DNA of 33,551 nt from a virus: positions 1 through 33,551 of the IMG/VR virus record IMGVR_UViG_3300009169_000053. The stretch is one strand, 5' to 3'. Position 1 is the first letter of the stretch, and each line of letters starts with the position of its first letter. A program made the translations under genes and the position numbers. The notes below the pieces were generated by a model. The model was given only the letters and a program-made list of their open reading frames with translations. It was not told the DNA's origin and made no database searches. Of this stretch, positions 1-21,469 are shown piece after piece.

Positions 1-2961
1 AAGTCCTTTACGAACAAAAGGTAGAAACACCCTAGCCTCAGCCTTACTGATATATCCTATCTCCTGATAGTATTCGTTCCTTTTTTTAATATTATTATAT
101 AAATCAAGAGCTTGTTTGTTTTCAGACTTATTAAGTTCTTTCCATTCATTTGATTCCCAAGTAGTTTTGTCAGGAAACTTTTTAAGTAGATCATAGTTAA
201 ACCATCCAGCTGAATCTATTGTAGATGTGTCGTATAAAGATTTAGTTTGTGCAATTTCTCTTTTTATCTCTTTCTGTATTTCCTCATCAGTTCCCACCCT
301 TGCTTTATCTTGGATACGTTGTAAATCTTCTTTCAGTTTTTCTTTAAGAAAGTCTGTATATTCTGCAACATTTATATTGTTCTTAATCCACTGAATGTCC
401 TTCTCACCAATCTTTGTTCTGAGAGTTTTATAGAATTCTGGATTAAACTCATCTATAAGCTCATTTGACTTTTCTTTCTTTATAAAGCTGAAATAGTTTT
501 TAGATGACAACCCTTTACCTTTTGCCCACTCATCATATTTAGATTTGATGTTCGTGAGTTTTTTGGTTTCAACAATTGTATCTTGAGCAGCATATGTAAA
601 TGCTCTATTTGCTTTTTTATACAGCACCTCCAAAGCTTTTAATGGAATTGTAGCTGTAGAAGAAAACCATTTTGTTATACCCTTTATCACCTTCTCAGGA
701 GTGAGGAAGTTCTCTACTCCTTCAGATCCAGCTACAAAGTCTTCTACAAACTCTCCTGACACTTCAGATAGTTCTGATAATATACCTCTTGCATCATCAA
801 CTGTATCTCTTAAGTCTTCTCTAAGTGCTTTATCTTCTTCAGACAGTTCTCCTTGGAATAGAAACTTAAGTTCTGTATCTAATGTAGTGTAATGTGATAT
901 TGAATTGTATGCATTTTCCAATTCATCATAGAAAGCGCTGATTTGTTCTTGAGAGAAAGATTTAACATCTTTTCCTTTCCAGTTTGTTTGATATTGCTCA
1001 AGAAGTTTATTCAGTTGTTTATTTAACACCTTTGCTTGATACAACAAAGGTTTGATATTTTGTTTAATCTGAAGTTGCCTGATAGCAGAAAAGAGAGCAT
1101 TCAATTGCTCAGCCTTATTAAGCTTCTCACTAGGAAGAGCTTTCTTTTCAGACATCTTTTTGTATACAGCATTTAGTTTTTCCAGGAGAGCATCAATCTT
1201 TTTGTTTCCTGTTTTTTCACCTTCTAGTCCTACAGGTAATAAGTAATCTTCCTTAACATTTTTTACGTTAACATCTCCAATCTGTATACCTGAAAGTGTA
1301 GGTAAGATTCCTTCTTTAACATTTCCACCAACATATTTAGCTTTGATTGGAATCATTCTTGTCTGCTTAAAGTCTTGTGGTTTAACCCCATAAACTTTCT
1401 CCAACAAGAGTTTGTATTGCTCCATTTGCTGTCTCCAAGCATTCACCTTATACCAAGGAACATCTGTATATTTGTCAACATTCAAATCCATGAACTTCCA
1501 GTCCAGGATGTTAGTTTTACCATCAGGTTCAATTGCCAAGAAATCTATTGTACCAGCTAACCCACGTTTAGCATCGTACGTCATTATTTCAGACAAGAAT
1601 CTTGTTCCTCCATTCTCTTTAGGAAAAGAGTTGAGACGTTCTTTTAAGTTATCTCTCAGAAGCTCATACATATCCCTATTATCTGGATTGAGCTGGGAAA
1701 CATATCCACTATCATCAAGTGGAGTGGTTCTTAAATATCCATCTTCGTTTACAAATACAGTAAAAGCATATTCAAGATCAGCATGACCAGCTGTTCCTTT
1801 CTCTGCCTTTAAATCAAACAAAGCCGTTTGATATTCATTCTTTGTAAGATCTTTAGCTTTAAACCTTCTCTCATACCAATCTTTTACAAGATCAGTTACC
1901 CTTCTAGGCACCTTCTTACCATCTATATAATATCCGTCGTCCTTTTTTTCAATCTTTGAAGAAATGTCTTTAAGCTTTTCATATATAGAATCTCTAGTAC
2001 CTTTCTGTAGGTATATCTGTGCTTCTTTATTTCTAACATCATCTACACTTCCAATTTCTTCTCCAGAGATAATCTTCATTGCTGCTGTGTCAAACCCACT
2101 CTTATTAAACAATCCTTTTAGATAGTTAACTATTTTCTGCCACCAACTCTCCACCTTAGCAACATTCTCTGGATTTTCTATAGATCCTTCTGACTTATTT
2201 ATAACTGTTTCAGCAAGCACCTTTGCAATAGCCTCTTTCTTGAGTTTTATTACATCAGGTTTACCTTCTTTTGTTTGGTAGTTAGAATCGCTGCTGTATG
2301 TGGCAAATACATCCTTCATCATCCTATATCCATTAATCTCCTTCAGAAGAGTGTTGAAGAGTTTAGGATCTGTTTGTTGGATGATTTCTACAACAAAGTG
2401 CATAGCTTCCTCAGGAAGTGCTGATGCTTCTTTACCATTCACCACTTGAATAAGCTTCTGTGTTATGTCAGCAACACCATTTGCACCAATTATTTTACCA
2501 TTGACAGCTATCTTGCTAACAACTTGATAATCAACACCTATCCTATTGAGGAGTTCTTTAATACGTTTGATTGTCTCAGGAGAAGCTTTTGATAGTTCTG
2601 TTCCTGGAAGCTGAAACATTCTATCTGCAGGATCAGTTTGTTTATCTAATGGTAGTTTCCTATATTCATATTCAATGTATGCTGGATTAACGTTTAATGT
2701 AATTGTAACTGGATCATATTCAGATCTGTTTGTAACATATCCAGTTATTGCATTATTGAATGATTTCTTAATTGACTCTAGTTTTTGATTAGCTATGTTA
2801 ATAGCCTGGTTCCTACTTAAAGCCTTTGTTTGTGCAGCATCCACTTGACCATTTATTCTGACAGTGTCGTCTGACATACGTGTAAATGTATACCTACCCT
2901 CAAAAGCTTCATCAAAGGCATTGTCTAATATTGCTTTTCTAACATCTAATCTACAAGCCAT
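1..2961 (-). CDS. crAss-like virion polyprotein with degenerate zincin and PD-(D/E)XK nuclease domains (3' end outside window)
   Basis: I translated this frame from ATG at 2961; 987 codons stay open to the left edge, so the C-terminus is missing. The ATG overlaps the stop of the polymerase gene in a TAATG junction, which fixes the start and suggests coupled translation. Residues 184-188 read EEAMH, in the sequence setting of a zincin metalloprotease (HExxH with the first His replaced by Glu); a helix with LAET near residue 250 and a basic amphipathic helix follow. Residues about 370-490 carry a RecB-like PD-(D/E)XK nuclease signature: GTAGH with His393, D473 in GTIDF, then D487-W-K489. The rest is Lys/Glu-rich and probably helical, with coiled-coil character. 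By position it belongs to the large proteins packaged with the virion RNA polymerase. The nuclease role, on host or phage DNA, is inferred. Confidence 0.85.
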   Translation of the reverse strand, partial: MACRLDVRKAILDNAFDEAFEGRYTFTRMSDDTVRINGQVDAAQTKALSRNQAINIANQKLESIKKSFNNAITGYVTNRSEYDPVTITLNVNPAYIEYEYRKLPLDKQTDPADRMFQLPGTELSKASPETIKRIKELLNRIGVDYQVVSKIAVNGKIIGANGVADITQKLIQVVNGKEASALPEEAMHFVVEIIQQTDPKLFNTLLKEINGYRMMKDVFATYSSDSNYQTKEGKPDVIKLKKEAIAKVLAETVINKSEGSIENPENVAKVESWWQKIVNYLKGLFNKSGFDTAAMKIISGEEIGSVDDVRNKEAQIYLQKGTRDSIYEKLKDISSKIEKKDDGYYIDGKKVPRRVTDLVKDWYERRFKAKDLTKNEYQTALFDLKAEKGTAGHADLEYAFTVFVNEDGYLRTTPLDDSGYVSQLNPDNRDMYELLRDNLKERLNSFPKENGGTRFLSEIMTYDAKRGLAGTIDFLAIEPDGKTNILDWKFMDLNVDKYTDVPWYKVNAWRQQMEQYKLLLEKVYGVKPQDFKQTRMIPIKAKYVGGNVKEGILPTLSGIQIGDVNVKNVKEDYLLPVGLEGEKTGNKKIDALLEKLNAVYKKMSEKKALPSEKLNKAEQLNALFSAIRQLQIKQNIKPLLYQAKVLNKQLNKLLEQYQTNWKGKDVKSFSQEQISAFYDELENAYNSISHYTTLDTELKFLFQGELSEEDKALREDLRDTVDDARGILSELSEVSGEFVEDFVAGSEGVENFLTPEKVIKGITKWFSSTATIPLKALEVLYKKANRAFTYAAQDTIVETKKLTNIKSKYDEWAKGKGLSSKNYFSFIKKEKSNELIDEFNPEFYKTLRTKIGEKDIQWIKNNINVAEYTDFLKEKLKEDLQRIQDKARVGTDEEIQKEIKREIAQTKSLYDTSTIDSAGWFNYDLLKKFPDKTTWESNEWKELNKSENKQALDLYNNIKKRNEYYQEIGYISKAEARVFLPFVRKGL

Positions 2962-5900
2962 TAGTTACATTTTTGATCTTTAACATTCAAATTCTTGTCA
3001 GGAAAATTATCTACAACTGGAGGTTTTGTATAGTTTTCCTCAAGGTCTTTCATAGCAGCTTGATTAATCCTATCCTCGTATTGTCCTGTTGTCTCTCCTG
3101 GTTCTTTAAAAATTGTATCATGCTTCACTTCATGAATCAGTGCAAAGGTAAACCATTCCTCTGCACTTTTAAATGCATCTTCAGCTAAAGGTGTAGCAAA
3201 AGATCCATCGAGTTGTTTAGCTGGTTTAGTCCATGCCTTATCGTCAAACTTTTGAACCATGGCTTTATAATCTATAGTGATTACACCAGTTTGTCTATTG
3301 TTCTGCATTGCAACAACTGTTTCCTTTTGTGTAGGAATCTTGTCTACAAAGTTCAACGGTTTGCCTCTGAATGATTTCTGAGCAATTCCTTTCTCTGGAG
3401 TGAATAGTTCTTTCTTCTTAGGTTCTTCAGCAGGTTTAGGTTCTATAGGAGTAGGAGCTATTGGTTTAGGATCTGTTGTTCTTGGAGCAAAGTAGTTAAT
3501 AATGTCTGCGTTAGGAATCTCATTATCAATCTTCTTTGTACCATTGTTGAACACAGAAGGTTTGTTTACATTATAATACTCAGAAGCAAACACTCCATCT
3601 CCATATAAATTGATAAGTTTGTAAATGTGTATTGCATTTCCATCCTTATCATATGTAAGAACAGGATCTCCATTATCATATCTCACCTTCTGATAACCAT
3701 ATACATCCTTGTATGACATGTCACCTTTTGCTTTCATTTGAGCAATCATTGATTTTGCCATAGTGGTTCCTGTCTCAACATCAATCATATCACCAGTCTT
3801 TCTATCTGTAACAACAGCAGGAACTAAAAGGAAGTCTCTTTGTACATCGAGATAGTTATAAGCCTCATTCAGTGTAAGGATTTTCCTATCTTCACTTTTT
3901 ATATTCAGATTTGCAACATTTGGAAATGCAGGAGAGTTGTATTGATAGATGTCAATAACATCACCGCTGTACGTCTCAACTTGTCCAATAGGTTCATCGT
4001 TTACAAAAAACTTAGGAGAAATTGTTCTCCATACATCTTGGTTCTTCCAATTGTTCCTTTGGAATGCTCCTTTTGCAAATGCTTCTATTTCAGGAGTGGC
4101 TACAAGATTTGCAATAACTGGAGCAATTGTTTTACTAAAGTCTTCAATAGGAATTACGTTCCTTATTGATATTGCACTCTGATAGGTTCCTTGAAGAATA
4201 GCCAGCTTTACAATATTATTATATAAAGCATTTGTCTCAGGAGTGTCTCTGAGTTGTCTGAACATTCCTTGGTAGAGATTTTCACTGTATGCAGACTTAT
4301 CATTTGTCCTAAGCTTGATGCTTTTTGCTCCATCAAACCTATCAGAACTAACCACTTGCAGTTCATTCAACAACTTGTTTTCAGGAAACTTAGCCTGAGC
4401 TTCAGCAAGTTGTGTAGCTACAGCTGTAGCAGGATCTACCAATAGTTCTTTTATTTCATCACTTAATGTTGTCTTAGTTTGAATTATGAAGTCTAGGAAA
4501 GATGACGTAATCCTGTTTCCTATCCTTTCATAATCGTCAGCTGACAAATACTGATTCTCAGCAAATGGTCTTAGAACACTGTCGCTTATTATTCTCAGTT
4601 TTGGATTTTCAAGCTTCAGATATTCTCCTAATGCTTCTGTAGACTTGTCAATTAAGAAAGCTTGTTCACCAATAAATGATGTATCAAAAACCTTATCTAT
4701 AGAAGAGAATATATTTCTGTCTCTTGCTTTCTGGGTTTTTACTTGCTTTCTGAATAGAGCGTCACCACTACCAAATCTAGTAGTGTCGTAGTTATATCCT
4801 TGAGTGAGGTTGAAACTGAACTCAGCCATTTTAGCATATTTCAAGAACTCAAAGAATATCTTTTGCTGAACAGCATTGTCTATGTCTGTGTCAAACTTAC
4901 CACCATTTTTGTAGTACTTCTCAATATTACTCTCAAGAGAATTTACATCTACACCTGCTGCCCTAAATGTTTCTCCTTTTGAAGGAAAGGATTCCAGGGC
5001 ATTAGTTATATTACCTTTGTTGAATAGGTTTTTATAACCAATGCTATCCAGATGGCTAAGGTATTTAGCAATGATTGGCTGATTCAAGAACATTGCAGCT
5101 TTCTCACCTACACCAATTCTCTCAAGATACATAAATGTACCAACAACCAATTCACTCTTTATAATCTTCATGATGTATGGATCTTTTGCAACATCCACAA
5201 AGGATGTACCATATCCAGACAATCTATCAGATATGTATTGTGTTCCATCTTCAGTCTTTGCTCCAGACATTGATATGTATGTCTTTCCATTTACAACAAC
5301 AGTGTTGTGAGGAAGAACAACTGAACCATCTCCAAGAAGTTCTTTGTCCCTCTTTGGTAAAAATGCAAATCTTTCTGGGTCAAGATATATTTGAGACTTC
5401 TGGAACAATGAGTGTCCTGTAATATTAACAGCAGCAATACCCACCCATTTCTTTGCAGATACAAAAGCATGTCTGAGAGCAGTCATATAGCTTCTGTTAA
5501 GAAGTCTGTTCTTAATCTTACTCTCATCAAAACCTGTTAATCCATCAAGTGTTTCAGACAGTTTCTTAAGACCGCCATCACTTACAGGAGATATTAATCT
5601 TTGGAACACTTCAGGAAGAGTTAGTAATTCTTCAAGAGATTCGTAATATTCATTCTCAAGGGATTGCTTATATGCTTGATTTACAAACTTTTCTTTAAGA
5701 TCAGCTTGAACAGACTCATCTCCAAGTTTTTCCAAATCCTTCATAAGAGAATCTGCCAAATCAGAAATATCGTTATACTCTTCTAAAAGTACATTCAAAA
5801 TACCATCATACCTCTTAAGAAGGTTTTTCGGATCTGCTAAATTGTATGCAAGAATATCAACTGCCTCAAGTAGTTCAGCTTTCTTAACTGCTTTACCTTC

Positions 5901-7922
5901 AAGAATCCTATCAAACTCACCTCTAAAGAATTCTTTTGTTTTTCCTTCAGATCCTAGATATTTTATCAACTTAACCTCACCTCTTGCATTCACGTATACA
6001 GACTTCAGGTACATATTGAGTTTATCAATATCAAAGTCAGATCCAGACTTAGTGGTGATTTCAGAAGGTACAATAACTGTTGCTCCCATATATTTTGGAA
6101 GAAACCCTTTCACCCTAAACACCTCAACAGAACTTGTTGCCTGTGTAGGAATACGAAATCCTATACCTGTAAGAATCTTCTTACCTTCTTCTGTATTATT
6201 CAGATAGTTAAGAATATCTTCATCTGTCTTGAATTTGTTTTTTGGAAACTTGTCTTTGAACCAATGAGGAATCATCACTTCGCAATACGGAGCATCCTTT
6301 GTATAGAACTTAAGAGTGTCGTCTGTAAGAGCCACCTTCTTCTTCTCATTTTCATCTAGCTTATCATATGCCTCTTTGGTTATCTTTTTCCAACCATCTT
6401 TGGTTTTATAAGCCAAGCTTCTTCCTTTTGTAGCAGACTCCCAAAGTGTAACAGGAACCTGTACGTGTGCACCACCACTCATCTTTGGAGAAACAAGAGC
6501 TTTGTCCACCATAGAGAACATAAGACTTCTTATCTGTGTGTATGCAGGAGATGATTCAAATGGTATTCTGAATTGACCGTTCTCATCAGTTCTAACAGTA
6601 TCAATAGCATTGTCAGAAAGCTCCCTTCTAAGCATCTCATGTTCAAGAGATTCTGAAAGTTTCTTCCTATCCACTACATTAAAACTATCACCAAGGTCTT
6701 CAACTCCTAATTTATTAAGAAGCTCATAATAAGAATTTTCATGCATCTTGTCAAGAATATCTTTATTCCTATCGTAAGCTTTTCTTATAACTGCTTGTCT
6801 TTCAGGATTTTTACTAAGAGGTTCACCATTGCTAAAGAGGTCCATGCTTGACATTTTAGTAAGCTGAGATCCTCTTGTTTGATACTTATCGTCTTCTGTT
6901 GTAGTTTCCACTTGAATACCATAAGCCTTCCAAGGAACTTCAATTCGATTATTGAAAGCTTCTTGATTAAATGAGCCATCTTGATTGTACAAACTATGAA
7001 GACTTTCAGCTCCAACCTTTCTACCACTTATCATTATTGTATATCCTACATCCTCCTTCATCATTTTCAGATAGAGGTTTTCTAGATTGGTTCCCTCAAT
7101 CATGCTATAATACATGGGCATTTGAGAAAACTTATCCAACACAAGATCGATAGTGTTCTTATTGTGTTTACTACCAGTCACAATAGGTTTCAATATCTCT
7201 AATGTATGTTTAGGTGAAGGAGATGATATAGTTTTCTCATCTTGTTTTTTAAGATTGTCATTTGTATAAGTGTACAATCCTTTGGTAGACATTCTGTTTC
7301 TTGTATAAGCCATTTGCCACTGATGCCAATCTTCAGCTTCCCTACTCCATTGTCCGTTCTTATTCTTGATTTCTCTGTATGTAGTGTCCATCAATATAGA
7401 TGCTGCATCTGCCTCATTTGTTTTGGCATAAGCATCTTTTATATCTTTAGGAACACCTTCCGTCATAGCAATACTACCAACAATATTTACGTCAGCAGTG
7501 GTGATTGTTGAAGTGTAGCTTTTATGTACATGGTAACCAGGATCTCCAGGTAAGAGAGAAATGTCTCCTGCTTTATTCTTACTATTCAACCATGTGTTAA
7601 ACTCAGGGCTATCAAATGTCACTCTTCTTGGAGAGAGGAATGATTTGATACGTTTTGTCTCATCCAGTTGATTTTCTTTAATTGCAAACTGATAAGGATC
7701 ACCAAACAATATCTTATGGAACTCAATATTGTTTATGATGTAATTGGTGTTTGCAAATTTGAACAATGCCTTCAGTTCATCCTCAGACATGTTATATTTA
7801 TTAACATCTTGCTCTTTTGCAAACTTATCATTCATTAATGGGAATGAATAAACATCCTCATTAATTTGGAAAATCTGACTATTATTTTTTAAAATCTCTA
7901 ATGGAATCATCCACTGTACCAT
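2961..7922 (-). CDS. crAss-like virion RNA polymerase, catalytic polypeptide, with C-terminal zincin domain
   Basis: This 1653-residue protein carries the DFDID motif at residues 629-633, in the context SGSDFDIDK. That is the metal-binding DxDxD of the two-barrel RNA polymerases, in the form known from crAss-like phages such as Cellulophaga phage phi14:2. GSQLTK at 351-356 fits the first double-psi barrel, and RIPTQ near 590 lies just before the catalytic loop. Phage polymerases of this family are packaged and ejected to transcribe early genes. Residues 1597-1601 read HEVKH with Glu1616 after it, an intact HExxH...E zincin site near the C-terminus. The protein looks short on its N-terminal side for this family; the missing part is probably the end of the preceding 2512-residue frame, which overlaps it by 41 bases. 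The start at 7922 (or Met5) is therefore uncertain. Its stop overlaps the next gene as TAATG. Confidence 0.9.
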   Translation of the reverse strand: MVQWMIPLEILKNNSQIFQINEDVYSFPLMNDKFAKEQDVNKYNMSEDELKALFKFANTNYIINNIEFHKILFGDPYQFAIKENQLDETKRIKSFLSPRRVTFDSPEFNTWLNSKNKAGDISLLPGDPGYHVHKSYTSTITTADVNIVGSIAMTEGVPKDIKDAYAKTNEADAASILMDTTYREIKNKNGQWSREAEDWHQWQMAYTRNRMSTKGLYTYTNDNLKKQDEKTISSPSPKHTLEILKPIVTGSKHNKNTIDLVLDKFSQMPMYYSMIEGTNLENLYLKMMKEDVGYTIMISGRKVGAESLHSLYNQDGSFNQEAFNNRIEVPWKAYGIQVETTTEDDKYQTRGSQLTKMSSMDLFSNGEPLSKNPERQAVIRKAYDRNKDILDKMHENSYYELLNKLGVEDLGDSFNVVDRKKLSESLEHEMLRRELSDNAIDTVRTDENGQFRIPFESSPAYTQIRSLMFSMVDKALVSPKMSGGAHVQVPVTLWESATKGRSLAYKTKDGWKKITKEAYDKLDENEKKKVALTDDTLKFYTKDAPYCEVMIPHWFKDKFPKNKFKTDEDILNYLNNTEEGKKILTGIGFRIPTQATSSVEVFRVKGFLPKYMGATVIVPSEITTKSGSDFDIDKLNMYLKSVYVNARGEVKLIKYLGSEGKTKEFFRGEFDRILEGKAVKKAELLEAVDILAYNLADPKNLLKRYDGILNVLLEEYNDISDLADSLMKDLEKLGDESVQADLKEKFVNQAYKQSLENEYYESLEELLTLPEVFQRLISPVSDGGLKKLSETLDGLTGFDESKIKNRLLNRSYMTALRHAFVSAKKWVGIAAVNITGHSLFQKSQIYLDPERFAFLPKRDKELLGDGSVVLPHNTVVVNGKTYISMSGAKTEDGTQYISDRLSGYGTSFVDVAKDPYIMKIIKSELVVGTFMYLERIGVGEKAAMFLNQPIIAKYLSHLDSIGYKNLFNKGNITNALESFPSKGETFRAAGVDVNSLESNIEKYYKNGGKFDTDIDNAVQQKIFFEFLKYAKMAEFSFNLTQGYNYDTTRFGSGDALFRKQVKTQKARDRNIFSSIDKVFDTSFIGEQAFLIDKSTEALGEYLKLENPKLRIISDSVLRPFAENQYLSADDYERIGNRITSSFLDFIIQTKTTLSDEIKELLVDPATAVATQLAEAQAKFPENKLLNELQVVSSDRFDGAKSIKLRTNDKSAYSENLYQGMFRQLRDTPETNALYNNIVKLAILQGTYQSAISIRNVIPIEDFSKTIAPVIANLVATPEIEAFAKGAFQRNNWKNQDVWRTISPKFFVNDEPIGQVETYSGDVIDIYQYNSPAFPNVANLNIKSEDRKILTLNEAYNYLDVQRDFLLVPAVVTDRKTGDMIDVETGTTMAKSMIAQMKAKGDMSYKDVYGYQKVRYDNGDPVLTYDKDGNAIHIYKLINLYGDGVFASEYYNVNKPSVFNNGTKKIDNEIPNADIINYFAPRTTDPKPIAPTPIEPKPAEEPKKKELFTPEKGIAQKSFRGKPLNFVDKIPTQKETVVAMQNNRQTGVITIDYKAMVQKFDDKAWTKPAKQLDGSFATPLAEDAFKSAEEWFTFALIHEVKHDTIFKEPGETTGQYEDRINQAAMKDLEENYTKPPVVDNFPDKNLNVKDQKCN

Positions 7923-10900
7923 TTACATAGTCGTCTATGTTTGCATTTATCTCAGCAATATTTTCATCAATGAACTCTTTGATTTTTTCTTTGTCACCTT
8001 TTTCTATTAACTTGTTTAAGTTTGTCAAAAGGTTTTCAGAAAGAATATCTTTGAAGAAACGAAGTTCTTTTGCACGAGGTTTGACATTTCTTAAATAAGA
8101 CCTGTCAGACAGGGCAAGTTCAATCTCATCTTCCAGATAACCTCTGAACACTTTGTGGATTTGGTCATTTGCCTCATTTCCTTCAAAATCTTCAAAACTT
8201 ATTTGGTTTCCAAGATTGAGCATCCATTCTGTAGATCCATCTGCAGGAATAAGAATATAGTAGTCACCAGACAAGTTTTGATTAAACTCTTGTGTAAACC
8301 TACTACCAAGTCCTAGCTTTGATGTAGATGTTCCTTTATCATCCACTGTATCTTTTGTACCTTGGATGTAGCCCACTTTCAACTTCCTATCTGTACGTTT
8401 ACCATCTTTGTCAAAGAATGGTCCTCCTTTTTTTAGAATCAAACTGTTCTTAGAGAATACATCATTAAGTTCAGGTCTTGCAGAAAGAAGTTCGTCAAGT
8501 GTTCCCACCTCATTAAATGTGTTCTCAAATACAGAAGGTGCATTACTATCAGCATAAGATTGCTGACGTTTACCATCTACACCAAAATATGTAGAATCTA
8601 TATTTGGATTGGTGGCTTTTATATAAAGTTCTGCAAGAGTGTTCAGCTGACCATTTATGGTGAGTGTTTCTCCTGTAACCTTTCCTATCTCTTTCTCACT
8701 TGCATATTTGTGTATTGCAGATACAGCTCTTCCAAAAGCTTTTTGTTGAGGGTCTTTAAGGTTTTGATACACCTCAAATGGGAAGTTTATACCAAGCTTG
8801 TCAAGAAACTCAACCATCTGTTGAGGATTACCAATAGGAATGTCAGACAGTTTCTTTGTTCTATATGTCTTATCTGGAGAATAATAATATATCAGAGATG
8901 TATTATCATTTGCTAATGTCTTAACATTCTCAATCCATCCCTGTTTAAATTGTTCTACAGCACTGAACAGATTAGCTGCACCATTATACACTTCGTTGTT
9001 TTCACCTATATATTGTATAACAGCATTAGGTTTTTGTTTTGTAAATGTCTGGTAGAAGTTGATGAACAGTCTCCAGTCTTGTTCTTCAAACTTTGAGAAG
9101 TCTATAGATACAGTGTTTCTATCTCCCTTCAGACGAGTGAAGAGGCGAACGTAATTACTGTCATATCTAGACAGTTCGATAAGTTTGTCTACAAGTTTTG
9201 TTACACTGTTGGTGTTTGCAAACTTATCCAAAGCTGTTGCAAAGGTTCTTGCAAAGTTTAGAATTTTATATCCATTTACACTAGACAGTTTTTGTTTTGG
9301 AAGATCCAAAGAAGTGGTGTCTATCTGACTTGTTGGTACAGTTTCTGTTAATGTACCCAGGATTAACTTGATAGGAAATGGAGAAGACTTTTTCCAGTCT
9401 GTAGAGAATGCCTCACGAGCGTAATCATTCTTATTATAGTTCTCATCGTTTATACCAAGAACACCCTCTTCATCAAAATCTATTTTGAACGTACGAAGGA
9501 AGTCACGGGTTTTACCAATAAGTTGTCTCCATGTATTTTCAGAAAGCAAATCTAATTTTCCTTCTTGTTGATAGCTTTCTTTTATTTCTGCAAATATTTG
9601 AGGAGCTGTAATTTGCTCAGGATTGTACAAAGACATGTTTGTTCCAAATGCTATTTGAAAAACACGAGCTGTAATATCCTGTACAAAGTCATGCGTTTGT
9701 TCTTCTGTCAATCCTTCTACAGCTCTATATTCAGCAAAGTCATTCTTTACACTTTCTGGAAGAACACTTTCTTTAAATCTACCTGTATCAATAGCTTTGA
9801 ACAGTTGTTCCTTCATAGAAGGTTTCTGTACAAATTGCTTGAAGAATTCAATAATGCTTCTGAAGAATCTAAGAACTTTCTCCTTCAGAGAACGAGCAGG
9901 GAGTTTACCAAGTCTAAACTCAGCAAAATCATCCATGATTCTCTCCTTCAGCATCTGGTCAGTTACATTTGGATCATCATAGGAATAAGTTTTTCCTGAT
10001 TGTCTATCTTTAAACTTACCAGACTTTTGTCTTTCTTCATCAAGAATAGCCTGACGCTCTTCAGGAGAAAGCATACCATTCCATACAGCTTCTCCTATTT
10101 CATGATATTCTGTACCTCTAGCTGCAGACCTATAAAACTTAGCAACACCATTTTCAAATGCACCCCATGCTTTCTCACCATCATGTGTTGTAAGAACATT
10201 CTCCATCACTGTATATGGAATAGTAGGAACCTTTTCAGCAGCCCAAGCTTTGAACAACTCAAGCTCTTCACTAGAAATTCTTTCTATTCCATCAGCACCC
10301 ACTCTTCTATATTCTGTATTAGGAGGTGGTTTAGTTCCTCCAAAATTTGTTGGTGCAGTAGGTTTAATCCCTTCTAAAGCAGCTAGTTCTGCATCATCAA
10401 AGATTACATCAGCAGTAAAACTTTGTCCATCTGGTCTTTGAATCCAAACTGTACCTACTAACTGACCTTTACTATTTCTTCCTCTTACTTCAAGAAGTTT
10501 TACTTGCTTAACTTCACTGTTAACTAATTCTTCAAGACCTGATTCATTTTTATTTACAATTGATAATGAAATAACTGGAGCTTGAGGTAACTCTGTATTA
10601 GCTCTGTTCAAAGTGTATTTCTGAACTTTTTCTATATCAGTTTTAGCATCTGTAGAAACAGCTGTTGTAAGAGGCTCTGTCCTAGCTGTTCCTTGCACTT
10701 GTGCAAGAGGAGAAACATCAGGCTGCAATACAGCTGCTGTTGTAGGAGCAACTGAAGCATTCAATTGTTTTTGTAAATCGTTTGCTATTTTAAGAGAAAC
10801 AAAACCAAGAACATGCTGTTCGTCTTTTTCTGTAGCATCAAATTTCTTTTCTGCTTTTAATAAAGGAATTATTGTATTGTTAAGAGCATCCTTATTATCA

Positions 10901-13900
10901 GCAATTTTCTTTATTGTGTCATTAGATTCAACCTCTACAAAAACTTCACCATCCTTAATAGTGGCTGTGAATCCAACAGGACCGTTATTAAGTTGGTATA
11001 CGTTTTGCGTTACACCATCTACGGTGTAATCACCTATCTTCTCTCCAGAAGGAGCAGGTGCTGTAGGAGCTTCTGGTTTAACAGCAGGCTTCACTTCAAT
11101 AGAAGGAAGTTCCACTCCCTCAAGAATGGAATACTTTTGTTTGAAATTAAAAGGCTTAAGCTCTGTAGGTTTCTGAATAGGAGTTGTCAAAGGAATGTCT
11201 ACCACTGACCTATTGGACCCATCTGGATACTTTGAAGACAACAGATAAGACTGATAATTATCCCACGTTCTTGTTGCAAGATTTTTAGACTCATCAATAT
11301 AATATTCATTAAACTTCTCACTAAAGTTTTTTGTAAGAGAGTCATTATTGATGTTAGCATAAAGATTCTCAAGCTGATCTATAATTTCAGCCTCACTTGC
11401 ACCAAGATTTGTCAAATCATACCTCTTTCCACCAAAGAAGAAATCCATTGTATCATAGTCAATGAATATCTGGTTCTTATCTGTCTTTGGTGATTTCCTC
11501 CAATAAAGAACATTTTGAAGGAACCTTGTATACTTCTTGTTGCTCTTTATTTTCTTTCCTTGGTCAAGTTTTTGTTTGATGTCTTCAGACATCTTTTTCA
11601 TCACCTCAAAAATAGTTCGTGCTTCAGCTTTAGTGAACTTACGTGTCTTGAGGAATGTCAATACATCTCTGTATTGGAAAACAGGAACACCATCAGGAAA
11701 CTTAAGGTTGCGTCCTTGGTGTTGAATATTTCCTGTTGTAGGGATTACAACAAGTCCTTCTTGGTAAACAATCTCATTTTCAGGAATAAGAGTTTCACCA
11801 ACAGTGTTGTTATCACTAAGGTTTGCTATGTCTGGAATACCAGGGCTTACAGAAAACTTATAGATTTCATATTTTCCTTCTGGAGTGTTAAACAGTTGGT
11901 TGCGTTTTGCTTTCCACTTATCTGAATACTCTTGTGCCTTATCCTCATCTCCAGATCTATACCTATTTTCTTTATCACTCCATGTAAGACTTGTTGTAGG
12001 CATTGTATCAAATACCACTTGATTAATGTCCACAGGATCACCAACCTTTCCAAGTTTCTTACCACTCTTATCTACAAAATATACATCAGCCCCATCCTGT
12101 TCAACATACACTGCACCAACAAATCCATCATTCAAGTCTGTGTATGTAGAAGGATCTACACCAGTGTTAGCCATTGACATTGCTGTCAGTCCAGATAAAC
12201 CAAGAGAGTTTTCTTGATTCTGTGTAACAAGGATTATTCTGAGGTTGTTTCTGTTAGGAAGGTTTCTGTAATTGTTCCTAAGTGTAATAGCACGTTGCTG
12301 ACTAGGACTAAGCTTACCTGATTCCCAGTCTTCAGACGCACCACTAGTTGATATAAATAACCATTCAATTCCTTTTTTCTTACTCTCTACATCAAACTCA
12401 GCTTTTGTTTTTGCTGTATTTTCTTTGGAAGCTATTGTTCCAGATGTATGTTCTATATCTTTTTGATCTTCTTCTACATCTTGTTTAAACTTCTGCAGTT
12501 TCTCCTGCTCAGTTTCTACCTTTTCATATCCCTCAAACTTGGATGGATCGACATTATATATGTCACCATTTATATCTTCCACCTTCAGTGTACCATCAGG
12601 ATTAATAGCAATCACCTTTGCTTTCTGAAGATTACCAAATTCTTCATTTATAGAATCAACTTGTTCTTTTGCTTTTTCCTCAGATCCATAAAAGGTGATG
12701 TTACCATCAGGTGCAGTCACTTGCCACCTATCATCAGCAATCTTATCAATTCTAGCTTTCTTTCCTGCAGGAATTTGATATTCTCTACCCTCTTCAAATG
12801 TTTCTTTAACACCAGCTTTATTTGTAAACTGAGGACCTTCTTTTACAACAATCTCTTTTTCTTCTTTATCTTCTTCCTCAGGAATAGCACCAGAACGAAG
12901 CTGCTCTCCTTGGTCCATGAATTTGTTAAATCCTTTTTCGCCTGTGAGATTGTCGTATAATTCAGACACATCATCTTTCAGAGAGTTGAGCCTATTAATA
13001 TCATGACCATAAGTGAATAAGTCAGTGGTATTCTCTGGACCAACTTGTCTGCTAGCAGTTGGGTCTTGATTATTGAGCTCAAAGTTGAGTAGATAATCAA
13101 ATAATTTACCATCTACACCATTTGTCAAACCAAGATTGATTCTTTCAGAAGCTGTACGTAATGCCTTAACCTGATTGTTTATTCTTTTCTTATCCTGTAT
13201 AGATGTAAACTCTGTAATAGTTTTATTTAACTGATTGGCTTTTTCCTCATAAGATGTACTAAGATCTTTAAGAGACTCTTTGTTTGTTAATTGAGAAAGT
13301 AAATCATTTGTAACAATAGGACTAATGCTATTGACACTTTGCTGTATAGAGTCTAATCTATTATTTACATGTGGAATCTTTGCTGCAAGAAATGTAAGCT
13401 CTGCTTTCCATTTATTGAAATCATTAAAACGTGAGGTTTCAATTCCCTCTTCAGTAGTGGTTGGGTTGTCTATCTTCTTGAAAGGATTCTTGAATGTAAA
13501 ATCAATTGAATCACTAATCTTCTTAATCTGATTAGCTTCATCAATTAATGAATCTACATATTCATTTACAGTGGACTTATTGGAAGAATTGAAGTCCATA
13601 CCAAATGACTTCTCAAATTCAGCTTTATCCAAATCTTTCAACATCCTCAACTGTTCAATTGTAACATCATGCATTCCTGAAGGAATACGTGATTGTACAA
13701 AGTTGATGAACATGTCGTTCTTAAGATTTTTATATTTAAAGACATCATTAGCTTTTACAGCCTCATCCATCTCTTTAGCAATGCCAGCTGAGTTCAAAGT
13801 GTTTTCAAAATTACTACTCAACACTCCAGTGAGACCATATTGATTGAGAATGTTTATAGAACTTTGTAAACGTTCATCAGATCCTTGTCCTCTTACTGTA

Positions 13901-15420
13901 TCAATTTTAGACATTATTCCACCACTAATCATTGCGCTGATTGCACCAACAATCATGTTCTCCAATCCTTCGTCTGTTCCAAATTGATCTTTTAGTCCCT
14001 TTACTGTAGAATTAACTGCTTCAACAGTGGTGCTCCAATTATCTTTGTATAATGGGTTTGAAAGATTTTTATACTTTCTTGTAAAATAATCATAAGTTCC
14101 TTTTTCTGCAGCATATTGACCACCTTCCTCATATACACCTTCTGACAGAATGTTTGGCAATTTAGGTTGTACAGATTCCCAGATTTTTCCAGAAAGTGTT
14201 TGAGCACCTTTTCTTTCAAACAAGTCAAGCGATCCTTCCTTAAGTCCAATTTTACCAACCTCGTCTATATCTCTTGTAAGCTGTCCGCTAATTCCTTTTT
14301 GAGCAGATGTAAATGATTTAAACAAGTTTCCAAACTGAACAGCATTGGATACTGTCAGTAGTGCCATGTTAATACCAAATCTGGTATTCATTGCATCTGT
14401 TGCATATTTTTCAATTTCTTCTAAATCAGAACTAATTGGTTCTTTTCCAGGATTTTGACTTTTATATTCCTTAATCAACTCATCCTTCACTTGCCTATAT
14501 CCATCACGAGCCTCAATTGCAGCTTCAGTTCTAGAAGAGCCATATATGCCCATTCCATATCTAAATCCGTTTGTTACTTTTGTTCCAGCAGCAATCTCTC
14601 CTAAACGTTTAATGTTTAGAATTTGTTGTTCAGTTTTTCCAACAGTTTTTGCAAGATCTAAAACCTTATCTACTTTTGTACTACCAGCGTAAAGTTTATT
14701 TAACCACAAAGAAGCTTTGCCAAGTTGAGACGCTACCAATGGGGCAGCGCCAATTCCTTCTGTAGCAGCTCCAATAATTGCATCTTGTACAAGAGCTCCA
14801 CCAATAGCTCCTGCTGTAAAACCAAGATTCTTAATAATTTTATCACCCCAGAAATTAGCACTTCCAGGCATGAAAGGAACTATTGCTAGATATGGATTTT
14901 CTTTTTCTTTTCTAGTATAGTAGTTGGGAAAGTAGTCTTCTAGATTTTTTGTCCAATCATCTATTGCAGCTTCATAACTATCTGGTCCTCCAGATAAAGC
15001 AGTTGTACCATTCTTAAAAGCAGAAATAGTATTAGGAATTGTAGCAAAACTTTGAGCAAATGTACCTGCAGCCAATCCTGCCATTTTCACAGCACTATTT
15101 CCCAATTGTGCCCATGCAGATTGTTGCATTCCATAAATGTTCTCAAGATCCATCCCTCTAACATAAGTGTTGTATCTTTTGTTAGCTGCCACTTCACTTA
15201 ACGGAATAAGATTAGCACCACCACCTTGTCCAGGAAGTTTTGCAAGCTTTGATAATTGAGAAGCATCAAGTCCCTCTATAGATTTATTTACAGAGCCTCC
15301 ACTAACTTCAATATTTGGAAGTGTGGGCATAGCACTTAATTGAGGAGTACCTAATGCAAGTTGCGGAATAGGATCTCCTTCTAAAGGAGTGTTTATCAAC
15401 TCTTCTTTAAAAATTGCCAT
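7882..15420 (-). CDS. giant crAss-like virion polyprotein (2512 aa) with zincin-like domain and probable N-terminal part of the virion RNA polymerase
   Basis: The N-terminal third has Gly/Ala-rich hydrophobic stretches (about residues 107-123, 200-230 and 488-505) that could insert into or cross a membrane; most of the following 900 residues look helical or Lys/Glu-rich. Proline-rich linkers lie near 1440-1457 and 1690-1705. Residues 1773-1777 read HEIGE in a zincin setting (YHEIGEAVW, then SPEER, then an acidic helix DDFAEF near 1830 and a basic helix); the second metal His is Glu here. The last 600 residues probably form the N-terminal part of the polymerase completed by the next frame. The stop TAA directly follows an A6 run, and a one-base deletion there would fuse both frames. 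ATG at 15420 overlaps the upstream stop (TAATG). It is probably packaged and ejected. The reading frame is certain; the domain assignments are inferred. Confidence 0.85.
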   Translation of the reverse strand: MAIFKEELINTPLEGDPIPQLALGTPQLSAMPTLPNIEVSGGSVNKSIEGLDASQLSKLAKLPGQGGGANLIPLSEVAANKRYNTYVRGMDLENIYGMQQSAWAQLGNSAVKMAGLAAGTFAQSFATIPNTISAFKNGTTALSGGPDSYEAAIDDWTKNLEDYFPNYYTRKEKENPYLAIVPFMPGSANFWGDKIIKNLGFTAGAIGGALVQDAIIGAATEGIGAAPLVASQLGKASLWLNKLYAGSTKVDKVLDLAKTVGKTEQQILNIKRLGEIAAGTKVTNGFRYGMGIYGSSRTEAAIEARDGYRQVKDELIKEYKSQNPGKEPISSDLEEIEKYATDAMNTRFGINMALLTVSNAVQFGNLFKSFTSAQKGISGQLTRDIDEVGKIGLKEGSLDLFERKGAQTLSGKIWESVQPKLPNILSEGVYEEGGQYAAEKGTYDYFTRKYKNLSNPLYKDNWSTTVEAVNSTVKGLKDQFGTDEGLENMIVGAISAMISGGIMSKIDTVRGQGSDERLQSSINILNQYGLTGVLSSNFENTLNSAGIAKEMDEAVKANDVFKYKNLKNDMFINFVQSRIPSGMHDVTIEQLRMLKDLDKAEFEKSFGMDFNSSNKSTVNEYVDSLIDEANQIKKISDSIDFTFKNPFKKIDNPTTTEEGIETSRFNDFNKWKAELTFLAAKIPHVNNRLDSIQQSVNSISPIVTNDLLSQLTNKESLKDLSTSYEEKANQLNKTITEFTSIQDKKRINNQVKALRTASERINLGLTNGVDGKLFDYLLNFELNNQDPTASRQVGPENTTDLFTYGHDINRLNSLKDDVSELYDNLTGEKGFNKFMDQGEQLRSGAIPEEEDKEEKEIVVKEGPQFTNKAGVKETFEEGREYQIPAGKKARIDKIADDRWQVTAPDGNITFYGSEEKAKEQVDSINEEFGNLQKAKVIAINPDGTLKVEDINGDIYNVDPSKFEGYEKVETEQEKLQKFKQDVEEDQKDIEHTSGTIASKENTAKTKAEFDVESKKKGIEWLFISTSGASEDWESGKLSPSQQRAITLRNNYRNLPNRNNLRIILVTQNQENSLGLSGLTAMSMANTGVDPSTYTDLNDGFVGAVYVEQDGADVYFVDKSGKKLGKVGDPVDINQVVFDTMPTTSLTWSDKENRYRSGDEDKAQEYSDKWKAKRNQLFNTPEGKYEIYKFSVSPGIPDIANLSDNNTVGETLIPENEIVYQEGLVVIPTTGNIQHQGRNLKFPDGVPVFQYRDVLTFLKTRKFTKAEARTIFEVMKKMSEDIKQKLDQGKKIKSNKKYTRFLQNVLYWRKSPKTDKNQIFIDYDTMDFFFGGKRYDLTNLGASEAEIIDQLENLYANINNDSLTKNFSEKFNEYYIDESKNLATRTWDNYQSYLLSSKYPDGSNRSVVDIPLTTPIQKPTELKPFNFKQKYSILEGVELPSIEVKPAVKPEAPTAPAPSGEKIGDYTVDGVTQNVYQLNNGPVGFTATIKDGEVFVEVESNDTIKKIADNKDALNNTIIPLLKAEKKFDATEKDEQHVLGFVSLKIANDLQKQLNASVAPTTAAVLQPDVSPLAQVQGTARTEPLTTAVSTDAKTDIEKVQKYTLNRANTELPQAPVISLSIVNKNESGLEELVNSEVKQVKLLEVRGRNSKGQLVGTVWIQRPDGQSFTADVIFDDAELAALEGIKPTAPTNFGGTKPPPNTEYRRVGADGIERISSEELELFKAWAAEKVPTIPYTVMENVLTTHDGEKAWGAFENGVAKFYRSAARGTEYHEIGEAVWNGMLSPEERQAILDEERQKSGKFKDRQSGKTYSYDDPNVTDQMLKERIMDDFAEFRLGKLPARSLKEKVLRFFRSIIEFFKQFVQKPSMKEQLFKAIDTGRFKESVLPESVKNDFAEYRAVEGLTEEQTHDFVQDITARVFQIAFGTNMSLYNPEQITAPQIFAEIKESYQQEGKLDLLSENTWRQLIGKTRDFLRTFKIDFDEEGVLGINDENYNKNDYAREAFSTDWKKSSPFPIKLILGTLTETVPTSQIDTTSLDLPKQKLSSVNGYKILNFARTFATALDKFANTNSVTKLVDKLIELSRYDSNYVRLFTRLKGDRNTVSIDFSKFEEQDWRLFINFYQTFTKQKPNAVIQYIGENNEVYNGAANLFSAVEQFKQGWIENVKTLANDNTSLIYYYSPDKTYRTKKLSDIPIGNPQQMVEFLDKLGINFPFEVYQNLKDPQQKAFGRAVSAIHKYASEKEIGKVTGETLTINGQLNTLAELYIKATNPNIDSTYFGVDGKRQQSYADSNAPSVFENTFNEVGTLDELLSARPELNDVFSKNSLILKKGGPFFDKDGKRTDRKLKVGYIQGTKDTVDDKGTSTSKLGLGSRFTQEFNQNLSGDYYILIPADGSTEWMLNLGNQISFEDFEGNEANDQIHKVFRGYLEDEIELALSDRSYLRNVKPRAKELRFFKDILSENLLTNLNKLIEKGDKEKIKEFIDENIAEINANIDDYVNGTVDDSIRDFKK

Positions 15421-18062
15421 TATTTGCTATCTTTTATTTCTTGATATTTCTTTGTACCAATGTTTTGCATAATTGCAAATACACCATCTAATTTTGCAAA
15501 GCCCTCTTTGTTCACAACATCATCTTTCCAAATACCATTGTCATTTACATACATTCTAATTTGATATAGATCTTCGTCTCCACCATCGTTGTCAGAAGCG
15601 CCTTCAATGTCAAATCTTACCAAACTTGAATATTTACTTCCTGCTAATAGCGGAAGTTGATCTCCTGTAAATGCAGCATTTAATGCTCCAGATGGTCCAC
15701 CATCAACTACTCCAGCTGAGTTTGTTGTTTTTGTAGGAGAACCCATTATCATATATTTTGCACTATCTAAAGGATGTCCTTTAGCTGCTTGTGGAAAATA
15801 TCTACCTAGTTGTTTAGAGTTAAGTGGAATCTCTTGAACTTCGTTTCCATTAAATATTTGAAGAGTTCCTTGAGACATATCAGCTTTTCTCTTTACAACA
15901 TATTTCAAATCACTAGCTTGCTTACCTGTTCTCCATGCTGTTATGGTAGCAGGGTCAAACTTTTCAGAATCAATCTTTCCACCAAGTTGACTTGCTATCC
16001 CATACATGTTACCAATGAGATTATCAACTTTTCCCATTGTAACCTTATCTTCTTTATCCAATGTACCAACTTCATCTTGATACTGAGGCATTATTTTTCC
16101 AAGTTCTGTATTAATAAAATTATCTTTATCTTTTGAAATCTTAGCTGATTTCTCTCTAACTTGACTACGAATGTTATCAAGTGTTTTTGCAATCTCCATT
16201 TCTTCACCAACTAATGATGCCAATCCACTTTTTTGTCTTTTCTCAATAACGTTAATTATTGGAAGATATTTTGAATTAGCATATACTTGTTTCATTTTAC
16301 CCCAATCTGTCACCCCACCTCCAATAGGAACTCCAAATTTGTTTAATTGTAAAGAAGAAGTAAATCTATTAATATCACTAGTTATACTTCTGATTTCTTT
16401 AGCACTATATATTTGTGTACCATTTTTTACATATCCAGGAAGAGAGTCTGCAATATTATTAATTGCGTCATCAAAAGGTTTTGCCTTTTGTGTAATGTTT
16501 ACATAATTGCTCATTTTCCTAGTCATATCAGTTTGCTTACCAATCCACTGATCAAGAATTTTTCTTTTGTTATTATCAGTGATGCTTGATGGGTTTGCTA
16601 GGTATTGATCAACTAGGCTATTCATTGCCTCTCTTTTCTGAACATCATTCATCTCGTTATATCCTGAAATAATAAAAGGAGCATTTTCTCGTTTAAACTT
16701 TTGCATTTCGTCATCAAGACTAGTGATGTCATTTTGTAAATCCCCAAGTGTAGGAAGAGTTTTATCTGTAGATGTTCCTAAGTTTTCGAATATAACATCT
16801 TTACCAGCAGCATCTTTCGTTAACTTGAATTTTTCTATATTAAGTCTTTCTAGACTTAATCCGTAATCTCTATCTTTATTCTTCTGGTCTCTAACAGCTT
16901 CTGAATATTTAAATGCTAAATCCTTCTTCTTCATCAATGCATTGAAGTAAGGATTGTCTTTATATTCTGTTTCTATATCTTGGTAGGAAATATCAGTGGC
17001 CAGTTTATTTAATGTTTTTTCCATGTAAACTGAACCCTTAAGTTCATCATCGCTAATTCTACCAATATTACTAAGTTTCTCATTAAGCTCTTTATCTATT
17101 CCACCTTTATTTACAAGATCTGTATACTCGTTCATCTTTGCTGTAAGAGCATCTCTTTGTTCCTTTGTAAGCTTAGAATTTCCAGAGAGCTCTGTTGATA
17201 TCTTGACAATTTCTTTTGATATTATGTCTTTCTTCATATTGTATGAAGAAGTTATATCACTTGTTATTTTTTGTTTAAACGAGTCTCCAGTATACCCTCT
17301 ATAATGATACCAACCGTCAATATTTAACTGTCTTTTATCATTCTCATCAATACTACTATAAAAGTTATCAAGAATCTTTTGAGCAGATTTCCCTTTAACT
17401 TTAGTTTTTAGCAGCACTTCATCAATCCTACTCTGCCCTTTGTCTGGAGTTGTAACATTACCATTTTTATCAAAATATAAAATATTGCCACCATTATCTC
17501 TTTGGAAAGGCATTTCTATAGATCGATCGTATTCGTGGACATCTTTTGCAACATCCCTAAGCTTCTTTTCAATATCTGTATATTCAACATAATAGTCCGA
17601 AAAAGAAGCATTTATGTCATTGTTATTTAACCATCCGTTTATTTTATTATTAAACCATGCTTCGTTTTGTACAGAAGATTTACCTGCTTTTCTAGCAGTC
17701 TCCATATCTTGCTGTCCTTTTCTTACATATTGAGTTGATGATACGGCACTTTGTACTGTGGGGTCTTTTGCAATTTGTGTAGCCATTCCTCCCACAGAGT
17801 TGACTAATTGGAAGTTTGAGAAGTCTCCAGCAGCTACACTCTTCAGTTTTCCTCCAAGCTCATCAAGCTTGGATTGAAGATATTGTTTATGTAATGGTTT
17901 AACAACATCCAATCCAGCTACATTGTCTATATAGCTTTGGATTTTCTGTACCCCTTCTTCATACTTCTGTTGTTTATACATACCCACTTTAGCCATTGCC
18001 TCAACAGGCAATTGCTGAACGTATGGGTTAAATTGCATTAAAGAATCTGTAAAACTGGCCAT
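15420..18062 (-). CDS. crAss-like virion/cargo protein, 880 aa, mostly helical, function unknown
   Basis: I recognise no enzyme motif. The protein starts MASFTDSLMQFNPYVQQLPV and is then rich in Lys, Asp, Asn and Gln with long predicted helices and coiled-coil-like stretches, for example through the DMETARKAGKSS and QREAMNSLVDQYLA regions. There is no signal peptide or membrane segment. It is the first gene after the promoter at 18078-18109 and is translationally linked by TAATG to the 2512-residue polyprotein, so it heads the RNA polymerase cargo module. In crAss-like phages a long helical protein of unknown function usually sits at this place and is a virion component; a role as internal cargo or as scaffold for the polymerase proteins is inferred. 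The start at 18062 is the only ATG close to the promoter and leaves a leader of about 10 bases. Confidence 0.8.
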   Translation of the reverse strand: MASFTDSLMQFNPYVQQLPVEAMAKVGMYKQQKYEEGVQKIQSYIDNVAGLDVVKPLHKQYLQSKLDELGGKLKSVAAGDFSNFQLVNSVGGMATQIAKDPTVQSAVSSTQYVRKGQQDMETARKAGKSSVQNEAWFNNKINGWLNNNDINASFSDYYVEYTDIEKKLRDVAKDVHEYDRSIEMPFQRDNGGNILYFDKNGNVTTPDKGQSRIDEVLLKTKVKGKSAQKILDNFYSSIDENDKRQLNIDGWYHYRGYTGDSFKQKITSDITSSYNMKKDIISKEIVKISTELSGNSKLTKEQRDALTAKMNEYTDLVNKGGIDKELNEKLSNIGRISDDELKGSVYMEKTLNKLATDISYQDIETEYKDNPYFNALMKKKDLAFKYSEAVRDQKNKDRDYGLSLERLNIEKFKLTKDAAGKDVIFENLGTSTDKTLPTLGDLQNDITSLDDEMQKFKRENAPFIISGYNEMNDVQKREAMNSLVDQYLANPSSITDNNKRKILDQWIGKQTDMTRKMSNYVNITQKAKPFDDAINNIADSLPGYVKNGTQIYSAKEIRSITSDINRFTSSLQLNKFGVPIGGGVTDWGKMKQVYANSKYLPIINVIEKRQKSGLASLVGEEMEIAKTLDNIRSQVREKSAKISKDKDNFINTELGKIMPQYQDEVGTLDKEDKVTMGKVDNLIGNMYGIASQLGGKIDSEKFDPATITAWRTGKQASDLKYVVKRKADMSQGTLQIFNGNEVQEIPLNSKQLGRYFPQAAKGHPLDSAKYMIMGSPTKTTNSAGVVDGGPSGALNAAFTGDQLPLLAGSKYSSLVRFDIEGASDNDGGDEDLYQIRMYVNDNGIWKDDVVNKEGFAKLDGVFAIMQNIGTKKYQEIKDSK

Positions 18063-20835: not shown

Positions 20836-21469
20836 TATTTTCTATTATTAATTTGCAAAAATATATTAAATTGTCAAGAGGCATGTTGCTTTTCATCATA
20901 TTTGCTCTATTGCAAACAAATTGAACATTTCCCTCAACGTATCCTAATGATGGATTTATTTTATCTATACTAGCATTTGTATCTAATTTTCCATGAAGTA
21001 TAGTATGGGTCATTTTTAAACCACTAATCTTACAGTTACCATCTTGACTTTTCCAAAGATCTTGTAAATAATCTATAGTTAAATCAAATGGTATATTTTT
21101 AGAAATAGCTCTATTCTTAGCACCGTGAAATCTGTCTTTTATATAATAGTCTAGATTATCTTTTTTAATTAATCTATCACACCTATTAGGATCTTTTTGA
21201 AGACAGTTTTTACACCTGTGTTGAAATCCTGTTTCTGAATCAGTTCTTTTATAAAAGAACTCACTTGTTAGAGGTAGTTCTTTATTACAAGAAGAACATG
21301 TCCATATATTGTCAGCTAGATATTTTTGCTTTTTTAAAGAGTTTAAATATCCAACATTTTTTGCACAAGTTTTACATTTGTTAAAGTACCCATCTTTAAT
21401 ACTTGGATTCTTCCAAAAATTATCAATAGATAATTCTTCTTTACAAAGTTTACAAATTTTAGTCTTCAT
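20813..21469 (-). CDS. free-standing HNH endonuclease with two zinc-ribbon-like N-terminal motifs
   Basis: From ATG at 21469 the product is 218 residues; a GTG six codons upstream (21487) is the alternative. Two Cys4 sets come first (CKLC...CKTC, then CSSC...CKNC), typical of zinc-binding DNA-recognition modules. The HNH core follows: CKISGLKM, SIDKINPSLGY and GNVQFVCNRANMMK, the form common in phage homing endonucleases. Such enzymes cut DNA at a recognition site and spread their own gene; they are not virion parts. It sits tightly between two structural genes, overlapping the upstream stop by 11 bases and the downstream start by 23. Its DNA looks more AT-rich than its neighbours: the 60-base lines at 21061 and 21121 hold 13 and 15 G+C, against 23 at 21661. 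A hairpin lies just upstream of its ATG. It is probably a mobile insertion. Confidence 0.85.
   Translation of the reverse strand: MKTKICKLCKEELSIDNFWKNPSIKDGYFNKCKTCAKNVGYLNSLKKQKYLADNIWTCSSCNKELPLTSEFFYKRTDSETGFQHRCKNCLQKDPNRCDRLIKKDNLDYYIKDRFHGAKNRAISKNIPFDLTIDYLQDLWKSQDGNCKISGLKMTHTILHGKLDTNASIDKINPSLGYVEGNVQFVCNRANMMKSNMPLDNLIYFCKLIIENNEKERFS

Follow-up and report, generated by a model that had tools for sequence, protein, structure and literature searches.

The record IMGVR_UViG_3300009169_000053 presents a giant virion RNA polymerase gene of a virus that appears cut in two at a short run of adenines, which raises the question of whether its product is made as two chains, is joined by a shift of frame, or is encoded by one gene into which an error was introduced. 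The window, on which all positions are numbered here unless a relative is named, is the whole stretch of 33,551 bases analyzed from this record.

Layout of the locus and the frame break

An upstream frame of 2512 aa (7882-15420) and a downstream frame of 1653 aa (2961-7922), both on the minus strand, overlap by 41 bases at 7882-7922, as had been reported in an earlier note made from the letters alone, together with the A6 run before TAA. On the coding strand the junction reads ...GATTTTAAAAAATAATAG..., where the A6 homopolymer (7890-7885, minus strand; T6 on the plus strand) marks the point of the frame break and is followed by the TAA (7884-7882) that closes the upstream frame; the downstream frame is +1 relative to the upstream frame. 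A gp47-like part, a zincin-like motif, YHEIGE (10090-10107, minus strand; residues 1772-1777), and the start of the polymerase are assigned to the upstream frame. The downstream frame is assigned the remainder of a two-barrel virion RNA polymerase, and its DFDID motif was indeed found at residue 629, as previously stated. Immediately before the ATG of the downstream frame at 7922 there is an in-frame TAA and, therefore, this frame cannot extend upstream. The preceding gene (15420-18062, minus strand) shares 1 base with the fused gene and encodes 880 aa, as it also does in the related contig G003. The next gene (1-2961, minus strand) has a 1-base overlap at its start and is cut by the window end at 987 aa, whereas 1645 aa are encoded in the relatives L001 and L003.

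Two features of the junction would suit a functional break. The overlap opens with an ATG that immediately follows an in-frame TAA, which is in agreement with a true two-subunit polymerase, the second chain of which would be begun at ATG 7922 (or at Met5) by coupled re-initiation. Also, +1 shifts of the release-factor-2 type combine a slippery codon, a slow stop behind it and a continuing frame at +1; this geometry would favor a programmed +1 ribosomal frameshift at AAA-TAA or, alternatively, polymerase slippage on A6, either of which would set the ratio of short to full protein.

Relatives across the junction

A first scan with the downstream protein as query gave 23 IMG/VR loci that were 44-100% identical by best segment, and a second scan with an alignment as query gave 78 further loci, taken from the best 80 of at least 468 relatives. 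Together, 101 IMG/VR loci, 32-100% identical by best segment, were examined. By contig name, 18 contigs are common to both sets, leaving 83 distinct contigs of which 81 reach the junction, and, since some of them are near-identical phages from different samples, these 81 contigs do not represent 81 independent lineages.

The junction is reached in 99 of the 101 loci, L103 and L105 beginning downstream of it, and all 99 junction-spanning loci of this set, which includes the best 80 of at least 468 relatives, read through it in a single frame. Each locus of the first set of 23 has one frame over the junction, 3655-5140 aa in length where no contig end intervenes; the frames of L015 and L018 (3188 and 3448 aa) both stop at or beside contig ends. 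Because the relatives hold both parts in one frame, both frames of the window are genuinely coding and did not arise by chance, and the proposal in the earlier note that they form one gene is borne out. Among the records examined, the split is private to this record. Related phages split likewise at other sequences, which would have spoken for a genuine split, were not found in this set, the breaks of L087 and L077 lying elsewhere in the gene.

Within a 1196-aa stretch of the polymerase, the portion that could be matched is free of stops in 98 of the 99 junction-spanning loci. The exception, L087, was scored as spanning the junction and not as intact; its frame is open except for a lone in-frame TAA at 11332-11334 of that locus, about 235 residues past the junction position. 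This TAA may be an error, a mutation or a case of readthrough, and the same locus is without the zincin-like motif at the usual place.

These data bear on both functional readings. None of the 99 junction-spanning loci is cut at this place or needs a shift of frame, and as features of the family the two-subunit and the frameshift readings were rejected. No relative examined divides the protein into two frames at this boundary, L077 being split elsewhere, and the shift site and the frame transition are not conserved among relatives, as they would be in a programmed frameshift. For this record itself, we consider a two-subunit polymerase to be extremely improbable, and a programmed shift or slippage only marginally less so.

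The A run in the nearest copies

L001 (99.0% DNA identity) and L003 (98.6%), the two nearest relatives, hold A5 in place of the A6 of the window. Both are without an in-frame stop at the junction, where the letters of the TAA are present out of frame, and the A5/A6 difference is the sole gap in the 10,397-column block in which the window was compared with them. The more distant L002 (89%) has CCAAAAC, with four As in a row, and likewise maintains one frame. A slippery site is, therefore, not conserved even among these copies, which argues against a frameshift. With regard to slippage, bacterial transcription slippage is described in a passage of PMC5009743 for runs of 9 As or Ts, and the run of 6 found here argues against it.

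L003 is carried by contig G003, of which 35.5 of 93.5 kb were compared in 32,629 alignment columns distributed over six blocks. The clean blocks contained six gaps, five of 3 bases and the A-run gap of 1 base. Four more gaps, of 2, 9, 1 and 3 bases, occurred in a divergent block (93%), and the first three of these fall within about 20 bases and jointly preserve the frame. In the parts aligning to G003 no other gap leaves the frame shifted. The window has 31 homopolymer runs of 6 or more, of which those in the stretches aligned to G003 were covered by this comparison. A contig scan of the viral collection for the junction with at least four As returned only the two A5 contigs, the window's own record possibly being outside that set, and nothing was found when the genome-contig collection was scanned for the junction.

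Window ORFs of at least 60 aa that match G003 are matched along all or nearly all of their length, except for a 402-aa ORF at 21459-22667, which matches pieces of a single 823-aa ORF present in G003 at that place. Beside it, on the minus strand (20813-21487), lies a 224-aa endonuclease VII/HNH-like ORF (phrog_1035, E 1.8e-29) for which there was no match in the compared part of G003. This arrangement suggests that a module was exchanged or that a homing-type endonuclease was inserted.

Position of the break in the predicted polymerase fold

At the limits used, PHROGs and Pfam gave no family for either frame and, therefore, homology was derived from tblastn, phmmer, hhalign and structural modeling; a megablast search of window positions 1-25000 against the phages collection gave no match. 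When phmmer was employed, the downstream frame matched the polymerase of PDB entry 6VR4, gp66 of phage phi14:2, with E 2e-22. In profile comparisons, the 1196-aa stretch as a whole matched gp66 219-1377. The 529 residues of this stretch upstream of the break, when used alone, matched gp66 219-708 (probability 91.6, E 8e-7), the part downstream of the break matched gp66 828-1377 (probability 100), and a middle fragment spanning the break aligned to gp66 787-986 (probability 95.1). Neither part matched gp47, gp49, g67 or g65 in these comparisons (probability 0.8 or less). For the extreme N-terminus of the polymerase, before about gp66 residue 220, the profile alignment was of low confidence and was given no weight.

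A first structural model, based on 23 sequences, had a mean pLDDT of 54.7 and no PDB match below E 0.001. A second model, made for the L001 homologue with 67 sequences, reached a pLDDT of 84.8 and a pTM of 0.82. In this model the junction (around residue 530) is located at the end of a helix (508-532) within a block of pLDDT 93-96. Residues 20-1182 of the second model fit residues 217-1472 of the 6VR4 chain (Z 21.1, rmsd 3.4, 883 residues, 20% identity), chains of QDE-1 and RDR2 being next (Z 9.5-14.6), and in a Foldseek search 6VR4 was the sole hit with E below 0.001 (5.1e-35). Taken together, the gp66 profile matches and the 6VR4 fit place the break inside the predicted polymerase fold, where it cuts a fold and not a subunit boundary. 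The supposition that the N-terminal part of the polymerase lies at the end of the upstream frame is thus substantiated, as that part matches gp66 219-708 and the 6VR4 fit spans the break. Alignment of both frames to gp66, a check suggested in the earlier note, shows the boundary to lie within the gp66-like fold. The two-barrel core and DxDxD motif of a crAss-like (gp66-type) polymerase are found in one polypeptide, which holds for the relatives but not for the window as recorded. Both functional readings are weakened by this position, as a two-subunit cut would fall inside the gp66-like fold and the short product of a shift would end inside it.

The break adjoins a stretch whose length varies among relatives: compared with L001, the distance from one conserved motif to a second is reduced by 16 residues in L015 and L021 and increased by 8 in L022; a real break beside such a stretch might, therefore, harm the protein less than elsewhere. 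If A6 were real and a working polymerase were obtained from two chains or by a +1 shift at AAA-TAA, with the cut at the edge of this variable stretch in the gp66-like fold, the phage would represent an early stage in the origin of a two-barrel virion polymerase that is split in nature, but we judge this to be very improbable.

The gp47-like part and its zincin-like motif

The upstream frame matches gp47 of phage crAss001 in two places, residues 91-696 and residues 1748-1882. The second match corresponds to the C-terminal part of gp47, with its HExxH motif, and the polymerase begins after it. All 23 proteins of the first set carry a YHExx[EH] zincin-like motif shortly before the polymerase part and, as judged by position, 97 of the 101 loci examined have it at that place in the same frame as the polymerase. 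The four loci without that arrangement are L103 and L105, which start downstream, L077, whose polymerase has a frame to itself, and L087, which has an open frame at that place but no motif. The zincin-like motif might cut the giant protein post-translationally into gp47-like and polymerase chains. In L077 (1-1118) the zincin-like part ends in a different frame, and about 850 bases separate its end from the start of the polymerase frame; this locus may be an unfused relative, may carry an insertion or may have a frame break in the linker. The linker (10397-10627, minus strand) from the gp47-like N-terminal part to the zincin-like motif varies in length; in the window it is 435 bases (a multiple of three) shorter than in G003.

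Regarding affiliation, protein matches were obtained with Crassvirales (phi14:2, crAss001) and with phages recorded only as Caudoviricetes (Dulem virus 41, Leptolyngbya phage Lbo-JY46). For residues 149-836 of the upstream frame, the lowest E-value among the phage matches listed (3e-44) belonged to a protein of Lbo-JY46, a phage of the cyanobacterium Leptolyngbya; as this best listed match is not from a Bacteroides or Cellulophaga phage, a host of that kind should not be presumed for the window.

Comparison with known systems

Like the polymerase of the window's relatives, gp66 of the Cellulophaga phage phi14:2 (Crassvirales) is a two-barrel polymerase with DFDID in one chain. In phi14:2, however, gp66 (2180 aa) and g067 (1797 aa) are separate genes, whereas the relatives of the window have partner and polymerase in one frame, and g067 lacks an HExx[HE] motif. 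In the case of crAss001, gp47 is matched by the upstream frame and gp50, the polymerase, by the downstream frame, but the two genes are encoded on opposite strands and separated by about 4 kb that include gp48 and gp49. Separate genes for gp47-like protein and polymerase on opposite strands in crAss001, and the polymerase of L077 in a frame of its own, would favor a two-subunit arrangement. However, the boundary in L077, crAss001 and Dulem virus 41 (and, by annotation, in p-crAssphage) is that between zincin-like part and polymerase, and in the first three it maps about 600 residues upstream of the break.

Carjivirus communis (p-crAssphage) also has giant fusion polypeptides, KP06_gp44 and gp45, annotated as 'putative RNAP catalytic subunit fused to unknown RNAP subunit' and 'putative RNAP associated protein fused to zincin protease', respectively. 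These are separate genes, whereas the window's group has the zincin-motif part and the polymerase in one frame. Giant fused polymerase proteins are, therefore, already known in Crassvirales, p-crAssphage gp44 being an example by annotation, and several large multidomain proteins making up a transcription block are described for the order in PMC7886860. For phage P23-45, a passage in PMC10770324 mentions a virion polymerase fused to the tape measure protein. Stops and frameshifts inside polymerase ORFs are reported for zeta crAss-like phages in PMC7886860, but there the disruption is described for a group, while here a single record differs from 99 of 99 junction-spanning loci that read through.

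Selection on the two halves and the origin of the additional A

Over the 2.4 kb that precede the break, pairwise dN/dS was 0.129 versus L001 and 0.079 versus L003; the corresponding values were 0.048 and 0.063 downstream of it, and 0.077 and 0.145 in the next gene. As estimated from these substitution ratios, both halves are under strong purifying selection. The downstream half, with 6 nonsynonymous and 32 synonymous differences from L001, is therefore not decaying, and the break, if real, is young, which is all that the low dN/dS says.

The main rival to an error is a real and recent one-base insertion in the phage or in a sub-population, which would lead to a truncated polymerase in a defective or weakened genome, or to low rescue by chance frameshifting at AAA-TAA. 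Homopolymers are mutation hot spots too, and six As are a short run for a short-read error. The 103 positions at which the window differs from L001 in the 10,397-column block indicate a distinct genome, and the in-frame TAA of L087 in the same gene demonstrates that broken copies occur in the collection, whatever the reason. According to the survey cited in the analysis, singletons can also be recent indels. Against an insertion stand the read-through in each of the 99 junction-spanning loci, the downstream half without relaxed selection and the parts aligning to G003 without any other frame-shifting gap. On balance, we regard a real insertion as unlikely, though clearly less so than the two functional readings.

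We consider an error of sequencing or assembly to be the most likely cause of the cut, because the relatives checked read straight through and this copy has an extra A. From the sequence comparisons, a homopolymer error probably makes one gene appear cut in two, the record holding one more A (A6) than its nearest relatives (A5) and the frame being shifted thereby. Thus, of the three readings offered in the earlier note, the assembly error is best supported, while the two-subunit polymerase and the frameshift or slippage did not withstand the comparison with A5 in L001 and L003 and with the 99 loci that read through. The actual phage gene would then consist of a single frame of about 4,150 codons, and its product would link a two-barrel crAss-like (gp66) virion RNA polymerase to a gp47-like protein that has a zincin-like motif. 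By analogy with phi14:2, as described in PMC7886860, we infer that this product may be carried in the virion, be injected along with the DNA and act in the host in the transcription of early genes.

With this false lead removed, the record should serve neither as an example of a split crAss-like polymerase nor as one of a frameshift gene, and the 99 junction-spanning loci (81 contigs) provide a set whose polymerase frame continues through this position. The join of a zincin-motif gp47-like part and a polymerase in one frame, as in the window's group, differs from the join annotated for p-crAssphage gp44 and may be a variant among the giant fused polymerase proteins of Crassvirales.
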